Shown here: positions 11,321 to 49,404 of the stretch, one piece after another
How positions within the stretch are numbered: the stretch's first letter is position 1
Layout: every line of letters begins with the position of its first letter
Assembly (NCBI GenBank): GCA_947259365.1
Contig: CAMYMC010000008.1
Coordinates: 124,001-188,000, forward strand
Reading direction: 5' to 3'
From: an uncultured Acidimicrobiaceae bacterium
GTDB taxonomy: Bacteria; Actinomycetota; Acidimicrobiia; Spongiisociales; UBA5794
Length of the DNA stretch: 64,000 bases
Program-made: the position numbers and the translations under genes
The notes under the pieces: model-generated
Seen by the model: the letters and a program-made list of their open reading frames with translations, nothing else
Told to the model about the DNA's origin: nothing
Databases searched by the model: none

Positions 11321-12097
11321 CTATGGCAGGTCGGCGTAGGGATCGGCGCCGTCGTCGTTCGGCCCGAGACCGAGCTCGGCCCGCAGCTCCTCATACCCCT
11401 TGGCCTCGAGCTCCTCCGCGACCTCGGGGCCGCCGGAGCGGACGATCCTCCCGTCGATCATCACGTGCACCCGGTCGGGCGCCATGTAGCGGAGGATCCG
11501 GCTGTAGTGGGTGATGATGAGAACCCCGAGCTCTTCGCTGCGCAGCGCCTCGACGAGCCCGGCGATCTCGCGCACGGCGTCGATGTCGAGCCCGGAGTCG
11601 ACTTCGTCGAGCACCGCCGCCTTCGGTCGGGCGACGGCGAGCTGGAACATCTCGGATCGCTTCTTCTCGCCGCCGGAGAGACCGCTGTTGATCGCCCGGT
11701 CACGGAACGGCGCCATCCCCAGCCTCGTCGCGGCACGCTCGACCCGGTCACCGAACTCGTGGGGGTCGCGACCGGCGGCCTCCCCCATCTCGGCGAGGAG
11801 CTCGTCGAGGGAGACCCCCGGGATCTCGACCGGGTATTGGAACGCCTCGAAGAGCCCGGCCCGGGCCCGCTCGTCCACGTCGAGCCCCATCACCTCGCGT
11901 CCGCCGACGGCGGCGGAGCCCTCGGCGGCGTACTCGTCCTTGCCCATGAGGACGTGACACAGGGTGGATTTCCCGCTCCCGTTGGGCCCCATGAGGGCAT
12001 GGATCTCGCCGAACGGGACCTCGAGGTCGACACCCTTGAGGATCTCCAGATCGCCGAGCTTGGCGCGTACCCCTTCGACCTTCAGCGCCGGCGTCAC
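11321..12097 (-). CDS. sufC: Fe-S cluster assembly ATPase SufC
   Basis: LGDLEILKGVDLEVPFGEIHALMGPNGSGKSTLCHVLMGKDEY...LSGGEKKRSEMFQLAVARPKAAVLDEVDSGLDIDA; GTGA overlap with Rieske ORF. Confidence 0.95.
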   Translation of the reverse strand: MTPALKVEGVRAKLGDLEILKGVDLEVPFGEIHALMGPNGSGKSTLCHVLMGKDEYAAEGSAAVGGREVMGLDVDERARAGLFEAFQYPVEIPGVSLDELLAEMGEAAGRDPHEFGDRVERAATRLGMAPFRDRAINSGLSGGEKKRSEMFQLAVARPKAAVLDEVDSGLDIDAVREIAGLVEALRSEELGVLIITHYSRILRYMAPDRVHVMIDGRIVRSGGPEVAEELEAKGYEELRAELGLGPNDDGADPYADLP

Positions 12098-12420
12098 GGT
12101 GCCTCCCCCTCCTCGATCGTGAGGAAGACGTCGCCGTCGGTGATGGAGACGCCGTAGACCGGAACCGGCTTGGTGGCGGGCAACGTGGACGGCGCGCCGG
12201 TACGGAGATCGAATGCCGACCCGTGGCGGGGGCACTCCACCTCGTCGTCGAAGACCTCGCCCTCGGCGAGCGAGGCCTCGGCATGGCTGCACTCGTCCCC
12301 GATGGCGTACACGTCCTCACCGAGGCGGAACAGCGCGACCCGGTGCCCGGCCACCGCGACACGCACACCCCGCTCGGCAGGGAGGTCGGCGAGGGCGGCG
12401 ACACGTATCCGGGTCATCAC
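12094..12420 (-). CDS. Rieske [2Fe-2S] ferredoxin-type protein in suf operon
   Basis: CSHAEASL...ECPRHGSAFDLRTG (CxH...CxxH). Confidence 0.9.
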   Translation of the reverse strand: MMTRIRVAALADLPAERGVRVAVAGHRVALFRLGEDVYAIGDECSHAEASLAEGEVFDDEVECPRHGSAFDLRTGAPSTLPATKPVPVYGVSITDGDVFLTIEEGEAP

Positions 12421-39813: not shown

Positions 39814-40704
39814 ATGGTCTCGGAGATCTTCGACTCTGCCGCATGGGATCCGGTCGCGGGTTTCGCCTTCACCGACATCACCTACCACCGCGCCCGCGGG
39901 ATCAACGCCGTTCGGGTCGCGTTCGACCGGCCCGAGGTCCGCAATGCGTTCCGCCCTCACACGGTCGACGAGCTCTACACGGCACTGGATCACGCCAGGA
40001 CGACACCGGACGTCGGGTGCGTACTGCTCACCGGCAACGGACCGTCTCCGAAGGACGGTGTGTGGGCCTTCTGCTCGGGAGGCGACCAGCGCATCCGGGG
40101 AGCGGACGGCTACAAGTACACAGACGGCGACGAGGTCGACCCGGCCCGCCTCGGCCGGCTGCACATCCTCGAGGTGCAACGGCTCATCCGCTTCATGCCG
40201 AAGGTCGTCGTCGCCGTTGTCCCCGGCTGGGCGGTCGGCGGCGGTCACAGCCTCCACGTCGTATGCGACCTCACGATCGCGTCGGAGGAGCACGCGATGT
40301 TCAAGCAGACCGATGCCGATGTCGCCAGTTTCGACGGGGGCTACGGCTCGGCGCTGCTCGCCCGCCAGGTCGGTCAGAAGTTCGCCCGTGAGATCTTCTT
40401 CCTCGGACGGGACCACACTGCCCAGGAAGCGCACGAGATGGGGATGGTCAACGCGGTCGTCCCTCACCACGAACTCGAGGCGGTGGCGCTGGAGTGGGCA
40501 CGGGAGATCGTCGCCAAGTCGCCGACAGCCCAGCGAATGCTGAAGTTCGCCTTCAACCTCGTCGACGACGGGCTCGTCGGCCAGCAGATCTTCGCCGGTG
40601 AGGCCACCCGGCTCGCTTACGGGACCGACGAGGCCCGGGAAGGAAGGGACGCGTTCCTGGAGAAGCGGGACCAGGACTACTCGGCGTTCCCCTGGCACTT
40701 CTGA
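39814..40704 (+). CDS. menB: 1,4-dihydroxy-2-naphthoyl-CoA synthase
   Basis: FTDITYHRARGINAVRVAFDRPEVRNAFRPHTVDELY...FCSGGDQRIRG...GWAVGGGHSLHVVCDLTIAS...QTDADVASFDGGYGS. Confidence 0.95.
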   Translation: MVSEIFDSAAWDPVAGFAFTDITYHRARGINAVRVAFDRPEVRNAFRPHTVDELYTALDHARTTPDVGCVLLTGNGPSPKDGVWAFCSGGDQRIRGADGYKYTDGDEVDPARLGRLHILEVQRLIRFMPKVVVAVVPGWAVGGGHSLHVVCDLTIASEEHAMFKQTDADVASFDGGYGSALLARQVGQKFAREIFFLGRDHTAQEAHEMGMVNAVVPHHELEAVALEWAREIVAKSPTAQRMLKFAFNLVDDGLVGQQIFAGEATRLAYGTDEAREGRDAFLEKRDQDYSAFPWHF

Positions 40705-40705
40705 C

Positions 40706-41614
40706 GTGAACGCCGCCAGAGCCGCGACGGGCTCGCTGCGCGCCTGGATCATCGCCGCCCGACCGCCGACGCTGTGGGCGGCCGTTGCTCCCGTCGTCGT
40801 CGGCGGAGCCATCGCCATCGACGATGGAGTCTGGCGCTGCGACGTGTTCGTCGTCGTCCTCGTTGCCGCCGTTGCGATCCAGATCGGGGTGAACTTCGCC
40901 AACGATGTCGCGGATGCCGCCACCGGCGCGGACGGGGCCGGGCGCATCGGGCCGGTGCGGGCGGTCGCCTCCGGGCTCATCCCCCCGCTACGGATGTGGC
41001 GGGGAGTGGCGGCGGCCTTCGCAGTGGCGACGCTCGGCGGGGTCTATCTGATCTGGCAGGCGGGCCCGATCGTGCTCGTGATCGGGGTGGCCTCGATCAT
41101 CGCCGCGCTCGGCTACACGGCCGGACCGTTCCCCTACGGCTACCGCGGCTACGGCGAGGTCTTCGTGTTCGTCTTCTTCGGCCTCGTTGCGACCGTCGGC
41201 ACTCGGTTCGTCTTCGACCGGACCGCCCCGCCCTCGGCCTGGTTCGCGGGGATCGCGATGGGGCTTCTCGCGTCGGCGATCCTCGTTGCGAACAACTACC
41301 GCGACATCGACTCCGACGCCGCCGTCGGCAAGCGAACGCTGGCGGTGCGTACCGGCAGACGCGCCACGAGGGCCCTCTATGCGGCAACGATCGTCGGCGG
41401 TGTCGTCGTCTGCCCGGTTGCTGCCCTCGCCGGTTCCATGCCGGGGGGCGCCGCAATCGCCGGTCTCGCTTTGCCGCTCACCGGCCCCCTCATCCGCACC
41501 ATCACGCGAACAACGGCGGGGCCGCCCCTCATCGGTCTCCTCAAGGCGACGGCGAGACTGCAGATCCTCGTCGCCGCTCTCCTCGCCGTCGGCATCGTCG
41601 CGTTGCCGGGGTGA
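40706..41614 (+). CDS. menA: 1,4-dihydroxy-2-naphthoate polyprenyltransferase
   Basis: ARPPTLWAAVAPVVVGGAIA...NFANDVADAATGAD...NNYRDIDSDAAVGKRTLAV. Confidence 0.93.
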   Translation: MNAARAATGSLRAWIIAARPPTLWAAVAPVVVGGAIAIDDGVWRCDVFVVVLVAAVAIQIGVNFANDVADAATGADGAGRIGPVRAVASGLIPPLRMWRGVAAAFAVATLGGVYLIWQAGPIVLVIGVASIIAALGYTAGPFPYGYRGYGEVFVFVFFGLVATVGTRFVFDRTAPPSAWFAGIAMGLLASAILVANNYRDIDSDAAVGKRTLAVRTGRRATRALYAATIVGGVVVCPVAALAGSMPGGAAIAGLALPLTGPLIRTITRTTAGPPLIGLLKATARLQILVAALLAVGIVALPG

Positions 41615-41634
41615 CCCGGTCTCGCGCGACGGCG

Positions 41635-41662
41635 TAAAGCTCACCGCCGGCCGGGCCGATAC
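41635..41662 (+). promoter_or_regulatory. sigma28/WhiG-like promoter motif TAAAGCTC-N12-GCCGATAC
   Basis: Matches the known TAAA-N15/16-GCCGATAA architecture; a second GCCGATACATG copy lies at 41712-41722. Confidence 0.45.
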
Positions 41663-41807
41663 ATGAGACGCAGCCGGTTGCGAGCGGAGTTTCATCATCG
41701 CCGCGACGGCCGCCGATACATGCCCGGCACGTTCGCCGGGTATCGATGCACACGACACGGAATCCGTTTCCCGAGATGCCGCCGGCCTCAAGGCCGGCGG
41801 AGTCTCG
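41655..41807. other. Structured intergenic element (candidate small RNA / terminator region)
   Basis: Two GCCGATACATG copies (41655-41665, 41712-41722); hairpin CGATA-CATG-CCCGGC-ACGTTC-GCCGGG-TATCG (41714-41745); hairpin CGAGA..CCGCCGGCCT-CA-AGGCCGGCGG..TCTCG (41772-41807). Confidence 0.45.
41772..41807. terminator. Strong GC-rich hairpin between convergent menA and 41853 ORF (possible bidirectional terminator, no T-tract)
   Basis: 10-bp perfect stem plus outer 5-bp CGAGA/TCTCG. Confidence 0.4.
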
Positions 41808-41852
41808 TTGCGGGGCCGGTCGCGTCGGATCACCGCTGCCCGGTCTCTCGGC

Positions 41853-42077
41853 TCACTCCCCGCCCGACGGGGAGCCCCCCGCCCTCCATCCGATGAGCGC
41901 ACCGCCGACGGAGCCGGCCGCGGCGCCTGCCAGCGAGATGGCGATCCCCGGCCCGAGATCCGCCGAGCCTGCGGCGCGCCCGAGCACCCACGACGCGACG
42001 AGGGCTCCGACGACGAGACCGAACGAGGCCCCGACGACGAGACCGAGCAAGAGACGGCGAAATCGCGGCATGTCCAT
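41853..42077 (-). CDS. Small Gly/Ala-rich membrane protein
   Basis: MDMPRFRRLLLGLVVGASFGLVVGALVASWVLGRAAGS...ISLAGAAAGSVGGALIGW. Confidence 0.55.
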   Translation of the reverse strand: MDMPRFRRLLLGLVVGASFGLVVGALVASWVLGRAAGSADLGPGIAISLAGAAAGSVGGALIGWRAGGSPSGGE

Positions 42078-42166
42078 GGTCGGCGCAGCTGTGGCGTGCC
42101 GGTGAAGCTACCAGCGCCCCGCCCGCCCGGATCCGGGCCGGCACGCCCTCACGGTATCCTGCGCCC

Positions 42167-43864
42167 GTGACCGGGCCCGCCTCTGCGAGAGCATTCACTT
42201 CAGCGTTCGTCGGCGCCCTCGAGCAGCTCGGAGTGCGCCACGTCTGCATCTCTCCGGGGGCGCGGAACAGCGCGCTTTCGCTCGCCTTCGGCGCCTCGGG
42301 CGTCCGGAGATGGATCCACCACGACGAGCGCTCCGCCGGCTTCTTCGCCCTAGGTCTCGCCAGGGTCACCGGCTCGGCCGCCGCCGTCGTCACCACCTCC
42401 GGCACCGCGGCCGCCGAGCTCCTGCCGGCGATCGTCGAGGCCCGAGCCGGGCGCGTCCCGCTCCTCGCACTGACAGCCGACCGGCCCCCCGAGCTGAGGT
42501 CGGTCGGCGCGCCGCAGGCCATCGACCAGATGAAGATGTACGGGGACGCCGTCAAGTGGTTCCACGACGCCGGCGTGCCGGGAGGCAACGACCCCGAGCG
42601 GATCGCGACCCACCTCGCCGCCCACGCCCTGTCGCTGACCGCCGATCCCCCCGCGGGCCCGGTCCACGTCAACGTCCCGTTCCGGGAGCCGCTCGTCGCC
42701 GGCTCCGGCCCGCCCCCGGCTCCGGTCTCGCCACCGGGGGCGCTGCGCGGCCCGATGCTGCCCGGTGATGGTGAGCTCGAGGCGGCGGCCGAGGTGTTGT
42801 CCGGGCGCAGGATCCTCGTCGTCGCCGGTGCCGTCGACGATCCGTCGTTCCCCGCCGCCACCGCAGACCTCGCCACCAGAGCCGGGGCGCCGGTGCACGC
42901 CGATCCCCTCTCCGGGCTCCGCCACGGAGGCCACGACCGTTCGTCGGTCATCACCGGCTTCGACGTGCTCGCGGCGGCGGGCATGCTCTCCGCCCTGAGG
43001 CCGGAAGCCGTCCTCCGCTTCGGCGGCGTTCCGACCTCGAAGGCGGTGTGGTCCTGGCTCGCCGCCAACGACGACGTCCCTCAGGTCCTCGTCGAGCCCG
43101 CCGGGTGGCGAGACCCGACGTACAGTGCCCGCCTCGTCGTGCGCGGAGACCCTGCGGGCACCGCCACCGGCCTGGCGAAGTTGCTGGCACCGGCCCCCGC
43201 CGGCTGGCTCGAGGCATGGCGGGAGGCAGCATCTGCGGCCGAGTACGCCGTCGAGACGACCTTGACCGGGACCGAGTCGTTGACCGAGCCCGAGGTGGCT
43301 CGGGTGGTGAGCCGCCTCGGCCGCGGCGTCGTCGGCGTTGCGTCTTCGATGCCGGTTCGCGATCTCGACGCGTTCGGGCTCACCAGCGCCGCCCCGGTTC
43401 GCTATGTCGCCAATCGCGGAGCGAACGGGATCGACGGGACGATCTCGATGACGCTGGGGGCCGTCGCCGCCAGCGGCGGGCACGGGCTGGCGCTCGTCGG
43501 CGACGTCGCCGCACTCCACGACCTCACCGCGCTGCGCACCGCGGCCCGGCTGGAGCTCCCGCTCACGACGATCGTCGTCCACAACGACGGTGGAGGCATC
43601 TTCCACTTCCTCCCCCATGCCGAGCCAACCTCCCCCACCGTGTTCGAGGAGCTCTTCGGGACCCCGCACGGAACCGACTTCGTCGCGGTCTCACATGCCC
43701 TCGGAGTGCCCGCAGCCCGGATCGGGGACACGGCGCAGCTCGAGGCCGCACTCGAGCCCCGCGACGGGCCGTTCCTCGTCGAGGTACGCACCGACCGCGC
43801 CGCAAACGTCGAGCTACACCGAGCCATCATCGAGGAGGTCCGGCGGCGAGTCAGCGCCGTCTGA
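42167..43864 (+). CDS. menD: SEPHCHC synthase (MenD)
   Basis: ALEQLGVRHVCISPGARNSALSLAF...TTSGTAAAELLPAIVEA...LTADRPPELRSVGAPQAIDQ; ThDP domain at C-terminus; GTG start. Confidence 0.95.
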   Translation: MTGPASARAFTSAFVGALEQLGVRHVCISPGARNSALSLAFGASGVRRWIHHDERSAGFFALGLARVTGSAAAVVTTSGTAAAELLPAIVEARAGRVPLLALTADRPPELRSVGAPQAIDQMKMYGDAVKWFHDAGVPGGNDPERIATHLAAHALSLTADPPAGPVHVNVPFREPLVAGSGPPPAPVSPPGALRGPMLPGDGELEAAAEVLSGRRILVVAGAVDDPSFPAATADLATRAGAPVHADPLSGLRHGGHDRSSVITGFDVLAAAGMLSALRPEAVLRFGGVPTSKAVWSWLAANDDVPQVLVEPAGWRDPTYSARLVVRGDPAGTATGLAKLLAPAPAGWLEAWREAASAAEYAVETTLTGTESLTEPEVARVVSRLGRGVVGVASSMPVRDLDAFGLTSAAPVRYVANRGANGIDGTISMTLGAVAASGGHGLALVGDVAALHDLTALRTAARLELPLTTIVVHNDGGGIFHFLPHAEPTSPTVFEELFGTPHGTDFVAVSHALGVPAARIGDTAQLEAALEPRDGPFLVEVRTDRAANVELHRAIIEEVRRRVSAV

Positions 43865-43880: not shown

Positions 43881-45203
43881 TCAGGTCGCCGACAGCAGCT
43901 CGAGGAGGGGCCGCAACTTCAGCCTCGTCTCCACGAGTTCGGTCTCCGGATGGGAGTCCGCCACGATGCCGGCGCCGGCGTAGAGCCGGGCGGAGACGCC
44001 CCGGATCAGCGCGCAGCGCAGGCTCAGCGCCAGGCTGCAGTCTCCCGACGGCGTCGCCCAGCCGATCCCGCCCGTGTACCACCCGCGGTCGAGGTTCTCG
44101 ACCTTGTCGATGAAAGCGACGGCGGCAGGCCGGGGCGTGCCCCCGACGGCCGGAGTCGGGTGCAGCGCGTCGAGGATCCGGAACGGACTCGCATCGCTGC
44201 CGAGGCTGCCGACGATCTCGGTCGACAGGTGCTGGACGGTCGCCATTCGCCGCAACGACGGCTGATCGGGCACCGACAGGTCCCGGGTGAACGGGGCGAG
44301 GCGCTCCCTGATGTCGTCGACGACGATGGCATGCTCGCGACGATCCTTGGCGCTGGTCATGAGTGCCTCGCCCAGCCACCGGTCGTCGTCCTCCCCCTCA
44401 CCTCGAGCGGCCGATCCGGCGAGCGGATTGAGTCTCACCGTGGTGCCCGCCTTGTCGAGCAGCAGCTCCGGGCTGGCACCGATGAACGCTGCGTCGCCGG
44501 CCTGCCAGCCGAAGGCGTAGCACTGCGGGTATGCCGCAGCGAGGTGCGCGGCGAGGTCGAACGGTGCCGACGGCGTCTCGGCAGTCACCACCACGGAACG
44601 GCCGAGGACGACCTTGTCGAGAGAGCCGGCACGAATGGAGGCGACGGCTTCCGCCACGGTCTCTCGCCACTCGGCCGGGCTCGGATGGCTCGCGATCGAA
44701 TGCGGGCCGGGGTCCGGTGGCTCCGGGCTTCCCGGCGCATCCAGGCTCCCGAGGAGCCCAGCGACGCTTGCGGCGTCGGCCGATGGGGGCAACGCCGCCA
44801 TCAGCCATGCGTCCCCGCCGGTGCGGCCCACGGCGAGACGGGGCAGCACCGCGTCGGCGCCACCATATCCCCGCCAGTCGTCCGTTCTCGGCCCGTCCGG
44901 GGAGAACGCAAAGCCGATGAAGAGGCGAAACGGCTCCGGCAGATCGCCGAGGACGGCAACGGCGCGTCCAAGCTGGAGAAAGCGCGACGGCCCCGCCCGC
45001 GAAGCCTCCCAGGCCACGCCCAGGCCGGCCCATGATTCACCTGCCGGCGTCGAGAAGTACTGCGCCGACCCGAAGAGAGGCGCACCGGCGCGGGCAAAAT
45101 CGAGCGGGGCCGTCGCGGTCGGGATCGCGACAAGTCGAAGCGGCCCCGACGCCGCATCGAGGCGGCGCGTCAGCTCCGCGATCTCGGACTTCGGAATCAA
45201 CAC
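43881..45203 (-). CDS. menF: Isochorismate synthase
   Basis: LDKVVLGRSVVV...AFIGASPELLLDK...LNPLAGSAARGEGEDDD...LHPTPAVGGTPRPAAVAFI...GWYTGGIGWA. Confidence 0.93.
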   Translation of the reverse strand: MLIPKSEIAELTRRLDAASGPLRLVAIPTATAPLDFARAGAPLFGSAQYFSTPAGESWAGLGVAWEASRAGPSRFLQLGRAVAVLGDLPEPFRLFIGFAFSPDGPRTDDWRGYGGADAVLPRLAVGRTGGDAWLMAALPPSADAASVAGLLGSLDAPGSPEPPDPGPHSIASHPSPAEWRETVAEAVASIRAGSLDKVVLGRSVVVTAETPSAPFDLAAHLAAAYPQCYAFGWQAGDAAFIGASPELLLDKAGTTVRLNPLAGSAARGEGEDDDRWLGEALMTSAKDRREHAIVVDDIRERLAPFTRDLSVPDQPSLRRMATVQHLSTEIVGSLGSDASPFRILDALHPTPAVGGTPRPAAVAFIDKVENLDRGWYTGGIGWATPSGDCSLALSLRCALIRGVSARLYAGAGIVADSHPETELVETRLKLRPLLELLSAT

Positions 45204-45213
45204 CGCCGGGATG

Positions 45214-46009
45214 TTACCGAGGGCCTGATCCCAACCCCGCCCCGGCGGCGCCGGCCACCAGCATCGCGGTTGCGGCCGGGTCCTCCATTGGGAGGAAGTG
45301 GGTCGTGGCCGGCACCACCCTCACCGGCGACGAGGAGGACGGGTACCGCCAGCTCACCGAGCCGGTCGTACGCGCCGTGGTCCAGACCGGCTGCGAAGAA
45401 CTCCGCTTCGTGCTCGGGAGCGCACTTCAGCTCTACGCCCCCGTCGGCCTCGCCGAGCCCGTGGGTGACGTATGCGGCGAGCACCCTCTCGTCCCAGCCG
45501 GAAAACGCGGGCTTGGCCCGCCAGCTCTCCTCGGCTTCCTGGCGTGAGGAGAACCGACGTCGGCGTCTTCGCGCTGCCACAGCGACCGCGACCTCCGGGC
45601 GTCGCCGGCGCGGGCCGGGGAAGACGATCGGCTCGACGAGCACGAGCGATGCGAACGTCCCGGGAGCGGTGAGCTCGGCGAGGACGAGGGCGGCCGCTCC
45701 GCCGGAATGGCCGACGCCGGTGATCCCGATGGCACCGTCGGCGACGGCGAGCACGTCGTGCCCGAGGTCCCACCAGTCGTAGGGAGGAACGACGGCATCA
45801 CTGTCGCCGTGAGATCGCTGGTCGAACGCGGTCGCCTCGAAGCCGGGGAGGAGCGCCCCCAGCTCGACGAATACGGGACCCCAGACCTCCTTGCAGAACC
45901 CCGTCGCGTGAGCAGCGATGATCTGTGGCCCGCCCGAGCCGTGCCGCCATCGCCGGGTCGCCAACCCGATGTTCCCCGCGCGCACGAACGCCGGGTGGTC
46001 GACGCGCAT
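45214..46009 (-). pseudogene. Alpha/beta hydrolase (menH-like position) with frameshift/deletion near 45310-45322
   Basis: IIAAHATGFCKEVW...GVGHSGGAAALVLAEL...VPVLLVAGE then frame lost; other frame continues RVVPATTHFLPMEDPAATAMLVAGAAGAGLGSGPR* ending at 45214. Confidence 0.7.
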
Positions 46010-46596
46010 CAGCCGTCGTCGAGCCGCCACGTGAGCGTGTTCTCGACACGGACGACGCCGTCGAGGCGGCGTGCCAGCTCCTCGAGCAGTCGGGATTCGT
46101 TGCGCGTCCCGATCTCACCGGAGAAATGGACGATCCCGTCCGCCACCCGGACGTCGATGTCGTCGGGATCGACGAACAGGACCCGCCGCAACAGGTCTTC
46201 ACGGATCTCGTCTTCGATGACCTCGTCGGGCCTGGTGAAGGCAGCGACGACGTCGAGGCGAGAGATGATCCCGAGGATGCGGTCCTCGGCGTCGACGACC
46301 GGAAGCCGCTTGACATCCTGGACGACCATGACCTTCGCCGCGTCGGTGATGGGTTGGTCGGGAGCGATGGTCACGACGCCCCGGTTCATCACCTCGCCCA
46401 CGGTCTCGACCGGACGTGGGTCCTCCGCCGCGCCCCTCGCCACCTCGAGCCGGAGGAAGTCGGCTTCGGTGATGATGCCGACGAGGCACGAGGCCTCGTC
46501 GCACACCGGCAAGCCGCTCACCCGGTGCCGGAACATCAGGCGGGCAGCGTCGTTGATCGGGGTGTCGGGTGACACCACGATCACATCCGTGGTCAT
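46009..46596 (-). CDS. Tandem CBS-domain plus BON-domain protein
   Basis: Two CBS motifs (NDAARLMFRHRVSGLPVCDE..., TDAAKVMVVQDVKRLPVVDAED...) followed by VADGIVHFSGEIGTRNESRLLEELARRLDGVVRVENTL. Confidence 0.88.
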   Translation of the reverse strand: MTTDVIVVSPDTPINDAARLMFRHRVSGLPVCDEASCLVGIITEADFLRLEVARGAAEDPRPVETVGEVMNRGVVTIAPDQPITDAAKVMVVQDVKRLPVVDAEDRILGIISRLDVVAAFTRPDEVIEDEIREDLLRRVLFVDPDDIDVRVADGIVHFSGEIGTRNESRLLEELARRLDGVVRVENTLTWRLDDG

Positions 46597-46668: not shown

Positions 46669-49404
46669 TCACACCGAGGCGCGAACGTCGCGCCGCGACG
46701 GCACGAAGGGCCCGGCGGCGTGACGGACGCGGATCCTGGCGTCGACGACCGTGACCCCCGAGCCGGGCTCCGCGACCTTCACCGGGTTGAGATCCATCTC
46801 CGCGATCTCGGGCACGTCGTCGATGAGGGCCGAGACCCGGAGCAGCGCTTCCTCGAGGGCGGCGACATCGCCCCGAGCGCCACCCCGGTACCCCTCGAGG
46901 AGCCGAGCGGACTTCACCTCGCGGATCATCTCGGCGGCATCGAGATCGGAAAGGGGGTGGATCCGAAACGCAACGTCTTCGATGAGTTCGACGAACACGC
47001 CCCCGAGTCCGAACACGACGAGCGGACCGAAACTGGGATCCTCCGCCATGCCGATGAGCACCTCGTGGCCTCCGGCGACGTACTGCTGAACGAGGGCGCC
47101 GGATGCATCCCCCACCGCACCGGTGACGGCCCGGTACGCCTCGCGGATCGCTGTCGCTCCCTCGACGTCGAGCACGACGCCGCCGACATCGGACTTGTGC
47201 AGCGCGCTCGCCGAAACGACCTTCAGCACGACGGGGCCACCGAGACGTTCGGCGATCTCGACGGCCTCGTCCTCGGAGCCGGCGACCCCCGACCCCGGGA
47301 GGCGGAGGTGATAGCCGCCAAGCACCGCGGCGACCTCATGCAGCTCGAGCCAGCCGCCGTCGGCCCCCAACCGCTCCAGGGCAGTTGCGACGACGTCCCG
47401 CACGGCCTCCGTCGCGACGTCCGCGAACACCGCCGCCTCGCCCTCGGGCCGGGCACGCCACTCCGCGTACTCGACGGCCCTGACGAGCGCCCGTGCTGCC
47501 TGCTCGGGGAACGGGTACGACGGCACCCGCCGGTCGCCGGAGGCGAGCTCCTCGGGGGCGCCACGTGAGCTCATGTAGACGCTGAGGAACGTCCTGTGGC
47601 CGTGGTGGGCGGCCCCGGCCCCCCGGATCGCCTCAGCGACGGCCTCGGCGCCTTCCACCGTCGGCGGCACGAAGATGGCGATGACGGCGTCGACCTCGTC
47701 GGACCCGAGCATGAGATCGAGACATGCCGCGTATTCGGCGGGCCCGGCCGCGGCGATCATGTCGACCGGGTTGGCGACGGCCGCCGCCGGCGCGAGGTGT
47801 GACCGAAGCGCCGCCTGGAGTCCCGGCGAGAGCTCGACGACGTCGAGGCCGCGCGACTCGAGGGCATCGACGGCGAGGATCGCGGGGCCGCCCGCGTTCG
47901 TGACGATGCCGACGCGGCGACCTCCGGGCAGGGGCTGGTTGGCGAGGAGAGCCGTCACGTCGAAGAGCTGACCGAGCGTCTCGGTCCGGATGACGCCGGC
48001 CTGACGGAAGAGCGCATCGACGGCGACGTCGAGGGAGGCCAGAGAGCCGGTGTGGCTGCTCGCGGCCCTGGCCCCGGCCGAGGTGCGGCCTGACTTCACC
48101 GCGACGATGGGTTTGGTGCGCCCGATACGGCGGGCGACGCGCGAGAACCTCCTCGGGTTCCCGAACGACTCGAGGTAGAGGAGGATCACGTCGGTGGACG
48201 GATCGTCCTCCCAGTAGAGAAGGAGGTCGTTGCCGGAGACATCCGCTTTGTTCCCGACCGAGACGAAGCTCGAGATGCCGATGTTGAGCTGTGCGGCATA
48301 ATCCAGGATCGCAATGCCGAGCGCACCCGACTGGCTCGACATGGCGACGTTTCCTCGCGGCGGCGACAGCGGCCCGAACTGGCCGTCCACGCTCACCACA
48401 GGGTCGGTGTTGAGCACCCCCATGCAGTTCGGCCCCACCATGCGCAGACCACCGGAACGGACCACCTCGAGCAGCTCCAGCTCCCTGGCTCGCCCCTCAG
48501 GGCCGGTCTCGCCGAAGCCGGCCGAGATGACGACGATGCCGCGCACGCCTTTGGCGACGCACTCGCGGGCCACGTCGATGACGTGGGATGCCGGCACGAC
48601 GATGAACGCGAGGTCCACCGGATCGGGGATGTCGGTGATCGACGGGTAGGCGCGTACCGAGCGGACGACGTTCGTTCCCGGGTTCACCGGGAACACAGGG
48701 CCGGTGAAGTCGCCGGTGAGGAGGTTGGCGAAGAGCCTCCCGCCGATCGACGTCGGGTCTCTGCTGGCTCCGATGACGGCGATCGAGTGCGGATAGAAGA
48801 TCGGGAGCAGCGACGCCGCGACCGCCCGCTTCTCGTGCTCGTCGCCGGCGGCCAGCGTCTCCGGCGACTCCTCGGTCGGGAAATCGACGACGTAGACGCC
48901 TTCTTCGATGGTCCGGGTGAGCTGGTACCCCGCGTTGCGGAAGACCCGGAGCATCGCGTGGTTGTCGGCCAGCACGTACGCCCGGAACGCGCCGATCCCC
49001 CGGGTCCTGGCGTACGCCGTCAGCTGTTGTAGGAGCGCGGTGCCGATGCCGCGGCCCTGGGCGTCGTCGACGACCGCGAACGCGACCTCGGCGGCGACCT
49101 CGTCCCCGTCCGAGCGCTCGTAGCGGCCGACCCCGACGACCACGCCGTCGTCGAGCACGACGAACGCCATCCGGTCGTCGTAGTCGAGCTCCGTGAAGTA
49201 ACGGAGCTCGTCGGGATCGAGCCGCCGTTTCACCCTGAAGAAGCGCTGATAGACGCTCTGGCGGGACATCCGGCCGAGCATGCTCTGGAGGGCGTCCCCG
49301 TCCGCGGGGAGAATCGGCCGCATCCGCGCGACCCCGCCGTCCTTGAGCACGAGATCGAAGATCCAGGACTCCGGATACCCGGCGGGGAGGACGTCGCCGC
49401 TCAT
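46669..49404 (-). CDS. GNAT acetyltransferase fused to NDP-forming acyl-CoA synthetase (Pat/ACD-like)
   Basis: N-terminal GNAT (VVDDAQGRGIGTALLQQL), CoA-binding/succinyl-CoA ligase-like (VGPNCMGVLNTDP; SHTGSLASLD), C-terminal ATP-grasp (LGGPVVLKVVSASALHKSDVGGV). Confidence 0.93.
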   Translation of the reverse strand: MSGDVLPAGYPESWIFDLVLKDGGVARMRPILPADGDALQSMLGRMSRQSVYQRFFRVKRRLDPDELRYFTELDYDDRMAFVVLDDGVVVGVGRYERSDGDEVAAEVAFAVVDDAQGRGIGTALLQQLTAYARTRGIGAFRAYVLADNHAMLRVFRNAGYQLTRTIEEGVYVVDFPTEESPETLAAGDEHEKRAVAASLLPIFYPHSIAVIGASRDPTSIGGRLFANLLTGDFTGPVFPVNPGTNVVRSVRAYPSITDIPDPVDLAFIVVPASHVIDVARECVAKGVRGIVVISAGFGETGPEGRARELELLEVVRSGGLRMVGPNCMGVLNTDPVVSVDGQFGPLSPPRGNVAMSSQSGALGIAILDYAAQLNIGISSFVSVGNKADVSGNDLLLYWEDDPSTDVILLYLESFGNPRRFSRVARRIGRTKPIVAVKSGRTSAGARAASSHTGSLASLDVAVDALFRQAGVIRTETLGQLFDVTALLANQPLPGGRRVGIVTNAGGPAILAVDALESRGLDVVELSPGLQAALRSHLAPAAAVANPVDMIAAAGPAEYAACLDLMLGSDEVDAVIAIFVPPTVEGAEAVAEAIRGAGAAHHGHRTFLSVYMSSRGAPEELASGDRRVPSYPFPEQAARALVRAVEYAEWRARPEGEAAVFADVATEAVRDVVATALERLGADGGWLELHEVAAVLGGYHLRLPGSGVAGSEDEAVEIAERLGGPVVLKVVSASALHKSDVGGVVLDVEGATAIREAYRAVTGAVGDASGALVQQYVAGGHEVLIGMAEDPSFGPLVVFGLGGVFVELIEDVAFRIHPLSDLDAAEMIREVKSARLLEGYRGGARGDVAALEEALLRVSALIDDVPEIAEMDLNPVKVAEPGSGVTVVDARIRVRHAAGPFVPSRRDVRASV

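Follow-up and report, generated by a model that had tools for sequence, protein, structure and literature searches.

A probable recent deletion in a menF-adjacent alpha/beta hydrolase gene of an uncultured Acidimicrobiaceae bacterium

The catalytic residues of E. coli YbfF are Ser89, Asp113, Ser206 and His234 (PMC2948520), and in est-OKK, which has the same Ser-Asp-Ser-His tetrad, mutants at each of the residues equivalent to YbfF Asp113, Ser206 and His234 retain 9-16% activity (PMC6182558). MenH, the SHCHC synthase, also belongs to the alpha/beta hydrolase family and has men genes adjacent to it. Both features are shared by the gene analysed here, which lies beside menF in a window of 64 kb (the whole 64,000-nucleotide stretch of DNA that was analysed) from a draft genome of 50 contigs that is 94% complete. 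Its orthologs match the Ser206 and His positions of YbfF and est-OKK, while having Glu where these enzymes have Asp and showing low overall similarity to them. In the window copy, by contrast, the equivalents of YbfF Ser206 and His234 have been lost.

The listing of open reading frames places the hydrolase start at GTG 46030 (45197-46030, minus strand, 277 aa). ATG 46009, which overlaps the stop of the upstream CBS-BON gene as TGATG, is more likely to be the true start, and the ORF as currently read from it spans 45197..46009 on the minus strand and encodes 270 aa. Its assignment to the alpha/beta hydrolases is based on identity to orthologs and on a match to Pfam Abhydrolase_6 (PF12697; 7.7e-11, 43.5 bits, which passes the Pfam cut-off of 26.3). 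The conserved in-frame portion (45320..46009, minus strand) carries the GxSxG nucleophile elbow in the form GVGHSGG, together with an acid candidate in LVLVEP, and ends in ...LLVAGE. From here the called ORF continues as ...VLLVAGE-GGAGHDPLPPNGGPGRNRDAGGRRRRGGVGIRPSVTSRRC*, an out-of-frame tail (45197..45319, minus strand), translated as GGAGHDPLPP...SRRC, whose TGA stop at 45199-45197 overlaps the start of menF. The arginine-rich stretch RRRRPEVAVAVAARRRRRRF was considered as a possible outcome of compensating frameshifts and dropped, a relative (L006) having in-frame YAHLPEMSMAVAARKRRDVF at the same place.

The displaced ancestral C-terminus, VVPATTHFLPMEDPAATAMLVAGAAGAGLGSGPR*, which includes the catalytic His, is found in another frame at 45214..45318 (minus strand), where it begins at 45318, one base past the Glu codon, and ends with a TAA stop at 45216-45214. 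The deletion junction was accordingly placed at 45319..45320 (minus strand), with a positional uncertainty of a few bases. A preliminary description of this DNA had claimed that the called ORF ends in an odd tail while a different frame holds a hydrolase-type C-terminus ending at 45214, and both statements were reproduced when the sequence was re-read. The position of the stop was correct, but its distance from menF is 10 nt and not 11 nt as had been given, the ancestral TAA being followed by the GTG of menF at 45203 (TAA-CATC...-GTG). Stop and spacer are as in intact relatives, in which the gap is either 10 nt (L030 and L031) or 11 nt (L004, L007, L008 and L033), and the CATC spacer is common to L008, L030, L031, L033 and the window.

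The change of frame can also be detected from the window's own composition. The GC content at the three codon positions, read along the ORF, is 0.77/0.53/0.84 before the junction and 0.86/0.72/0.64 after it, and the post-junction stretch, which is only about 107 nt long, has coding-like values of 0.72/0.64/0.86 when read in the other frame. When the six frames were segmented with the Viterbi algorithm from codon usage in the window itself, the frame switch fell at 45318/45319. The only other same-strand switch that seemed to lie within a gene, near 12103, proved to be a separate and intact small ORF between neighbouring genes (12094-12420), which, from a reading of its sequence, we take to be Rieske-like. 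No comparable unexplained intragenic switch was seen elsewhere in the 64 kb by this codon-usage segmentation.

A search of 60 related genomes returned 40 clear orthologs outside the own genome (E 7e-36 to 2e-75, 39-54% identity), the best of them, from related Acidimicrobiia, having 50-54% identity over residues ~4-243. Nearly all of the matches stop at query residues 237-248, mostly 242-244, which is where the tail of the window gene begins. No other genome of the window's genus was among the 60 relatives searched, and a scan of GTDB contigs, which likewise turned up nothing from that genus, added just one more ortholog, from an Acidimicrobiia MAG. Thirty ortholog genes were read through to their stop codons, and all 30 were full length (262-300 aa, the lengths depending on the starts chosen), with the nucleophile motif GHSxG and an in-frame C-terminal His segment. 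Between 'GE' and the position aligned with 'VVP' they have 22 (three genes), 23 (26 genes) or 24 residues (one gene), followed by a "VVPxxxHFxPME" segment and then a short tail. Since these 22-24 residues are replaced in the window by a single base, the missing DNA amounts to about 68 nt (65-71) and shifts the frame; the VVPxxxHFxPME segment lies out of frame, and the catalytic His after the last strand is not in the ORF frame. The earlier estimate that 20-30 residues are missing between 'LLVAGE' and 'RVVPATTHF' thus agrees with the orthologs. Orthologs sharing the called C-terminus had been named beforehand as the observation that would speak against a break, and the out-of-frame tail of the window was absent from all 30 of those read to the stop. 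The orthologs are intact while the homologous sequence resumes in another frame of the window, as in a pseudogene formed by deletion. A direct comparison is offered by L033 (JASJDZ010000017.1, MAG Acidimicrobiia bacterium MO_197.B6), whose 286-aa hydrolase has 51% identity to the window gene over residues 11-242 and the same order of acyl-CoA synthetase-like, CBS-BON, hydrolase and menF genes. Unlike the window gene, that of L033 has both the linker and the His-bearing segment within its reading frame.

A profile built from eight ortholog rows (seven distinct) was aligned to E. coli YbfF (3bf8), with residue numbers counted along the alignment. YbfF Asp113 aligned with the Glu of LVLVEP, Ser206 with the Ser of GExS and His234 with the His of the C-terminal segment, which suggests that the family uses a Ser-Glu-Ser-His tetrad, Glu replacing Asp. 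The Ser conserved among the orthologs at the GxxS position, which corresponds to YbfF Ser206, lies inside the deleted stretch and is absent from the window gene. The deletion has thus likely taken the second Ser and the frameshift the His, that is, two of four likely catalytic residues. The previous claim that a deletion and a frameshift together remove the catalytic-His segment was borne out by the 30 orthologs, and may be extended, in that the deleted stretch probably also held a catalytic Ser. With the second Ser and the His both gone, the encoded product would be expected to be catalytically dead, even though the nucleophile Ser and the acid are kept. Single-sequence structure prediction gave unusable models (pLDDT 35 and 33).

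Every one of the 45 conserved columns (those with at least 90% conservation in the orthologs) is unchanged in the window, 40/40 before the junction and 5/5 after it. The event must for this reason be either recent or an artefact of assembly, and the absence of decay fits the two equally well. Ordinary gene inactivation by deletion (pseudogenisation), real and recent rather than an assembly error, is the most likely reading, and we think it probable that a single, recent and real deletion of ~68 bp has broken, in this lineage, a hydrolase gene that belongs to a conserved block. One such deletion would have excised the linker joining the final two strands of the core, and with it one likely active-site Ser; owing to the resulting shift of frame, translation would no longer yield the His segment, and the product would retain the nucleophile Ser and the acid without the second Ser and the His.

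The organism's gene could alternatively be intact and the break a local error of assembly or consensus, such as a collapse between short direct repeats. The displaced remnant, undecayed at 45/45 conserved positions, and the multi-contig state of the draft genome are both compatible with such an error. However, a loss of ~68 nt is unlike errors of the homopolymer type, and the assembly does not appear to be indel-prone, because no frame break of a comparable, unexplained kind was seen within genes in the rest of the window. The locus is also single-copy, its sole other DNA match in the genome being 25 nt long, so that there is no long repeat to mislead an assembler. An assembly error is on these grounds rather unlikely, albeit a serious contender, and we infer that the living population does carry the deletion. 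Whether all of it does is a narrower matter: the deletion might be present in one strain while others are intact, with the contig representing one allele. This sub-case of the real deletion, whose probability overlaps with that of the deletion as a whole, is consistent with a recent, undecayed event and is put forward as a tentative possibility. It is very improbable that the called C-terminus is a genuine variant, the end of a truncated hydrolase that remains functional with its novel tail or serves some purpose other than catalysis. The ORF does run without a stop as far as the menF start and retains most of the core, but the tail occurs in none of the orthologs read and the original C-terminus is recognisable in the other frame with all of its conserved residues. 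Restoration of the C-terminus by recoding (a programmed frameshift) can practically be dismissed. Although nothing interrupts the displaced frame before its stop, the DNA lacks about 23 codons, and no shift would restore the linker.

The flanking genes of the window hydrolase are joined in the same order and direction as in relatives, among which the succession of acyl-CoA synthetase-like, CBS-BON, hydrolase and menF genes recurs widely. Within ~1.5 kb flanks, CBS-BON was found at the locus of 27/30 orthologs and menF at that of 24/30, some contigs ending early. The CBS-BON domain protein of the window is encoded at 46009..46596 (minus strand; CBS 7.8e-31, BON 1.2e-12), its stop overlapping the hydrolase ATG. 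A 911-aa ORF at 46669-49404 combines, as judged by eye, an acetyltransferase-like N-terminal domain with an ADP-forming acyl-CoA synthetase-like part, and a counterpart of it is present upstream of CBS-BON in many relatives. Downstream of the hydrolase, the menF-type isochorismate synthase (43881..45203, minus strand) starts with GTG and is supported by TIGR00543 (303.6 bits, above the cut-off of 224.75) and Chorismate_bind (8.6e-78). Because the new hydrolase frame stops at 45199-45197, overlapping the menF start, translational coupling to menF is probably not disrupted, and the break would be non-polar on menF.

The window hydrolase is not an evident MenH. A search of its own genome with TIGR03695 (MenH) at E<=0.01 gave 21 matches, and the window hydrolase was not among them. 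The best match (C37:23233-23934), on a separate contig, falls short of the 208.55 cut-off with its 153 bits, and is judged from this profile score to be the better candidate; separate genes comparable to it occur in most relatives. Loss of the hydrolase itself seems tolerable, because several relatives (G005, G006, G016, G022, G023, G032 and G056) keep menF at E<=1e-40 without a close hydrolase ortholog, some of these drafts being incomplete. The lineage might then be losing a men-cluster hydrolase of the Ser-Glu-Ser-His type that it can now do without, as can those relatives, a suggestion that we regard as speculative. If true, it could mean that this family has a conditional or accessory role in menaquinone metabolism. 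In annotation, the ORF is better labelled a probable pseudogene, or examined for an assembly error, than listed as a functional hydrolase with an unusual C-terminus.

The orthologs themselves (L004-L033) reveal an uncharacterised hydrolase family that carries the motif HATGFCKE and whose Ser-Glu-Ser-His pattern is similar to the tetrad of YbfF. It is well conserved next to menF in the Acidimicrobiia yet absent from some menF-keeping relatives, and its part in menaquinone synthesis can therefore be put to the test. In one relative (G030, a 60% complete draft), menF matches in two pieces (L030:316-1337; residues 2-99 and 183-427), which suggests a gene break or an assembly fault. Men genes of the window cluster at 39868-43864, with menB at 39868-40689, above its profile cut-off, and an ORF at 42167-43864, on the strand opposite to menF, which is called menD-like from its reading and from a match beside menF in L033.
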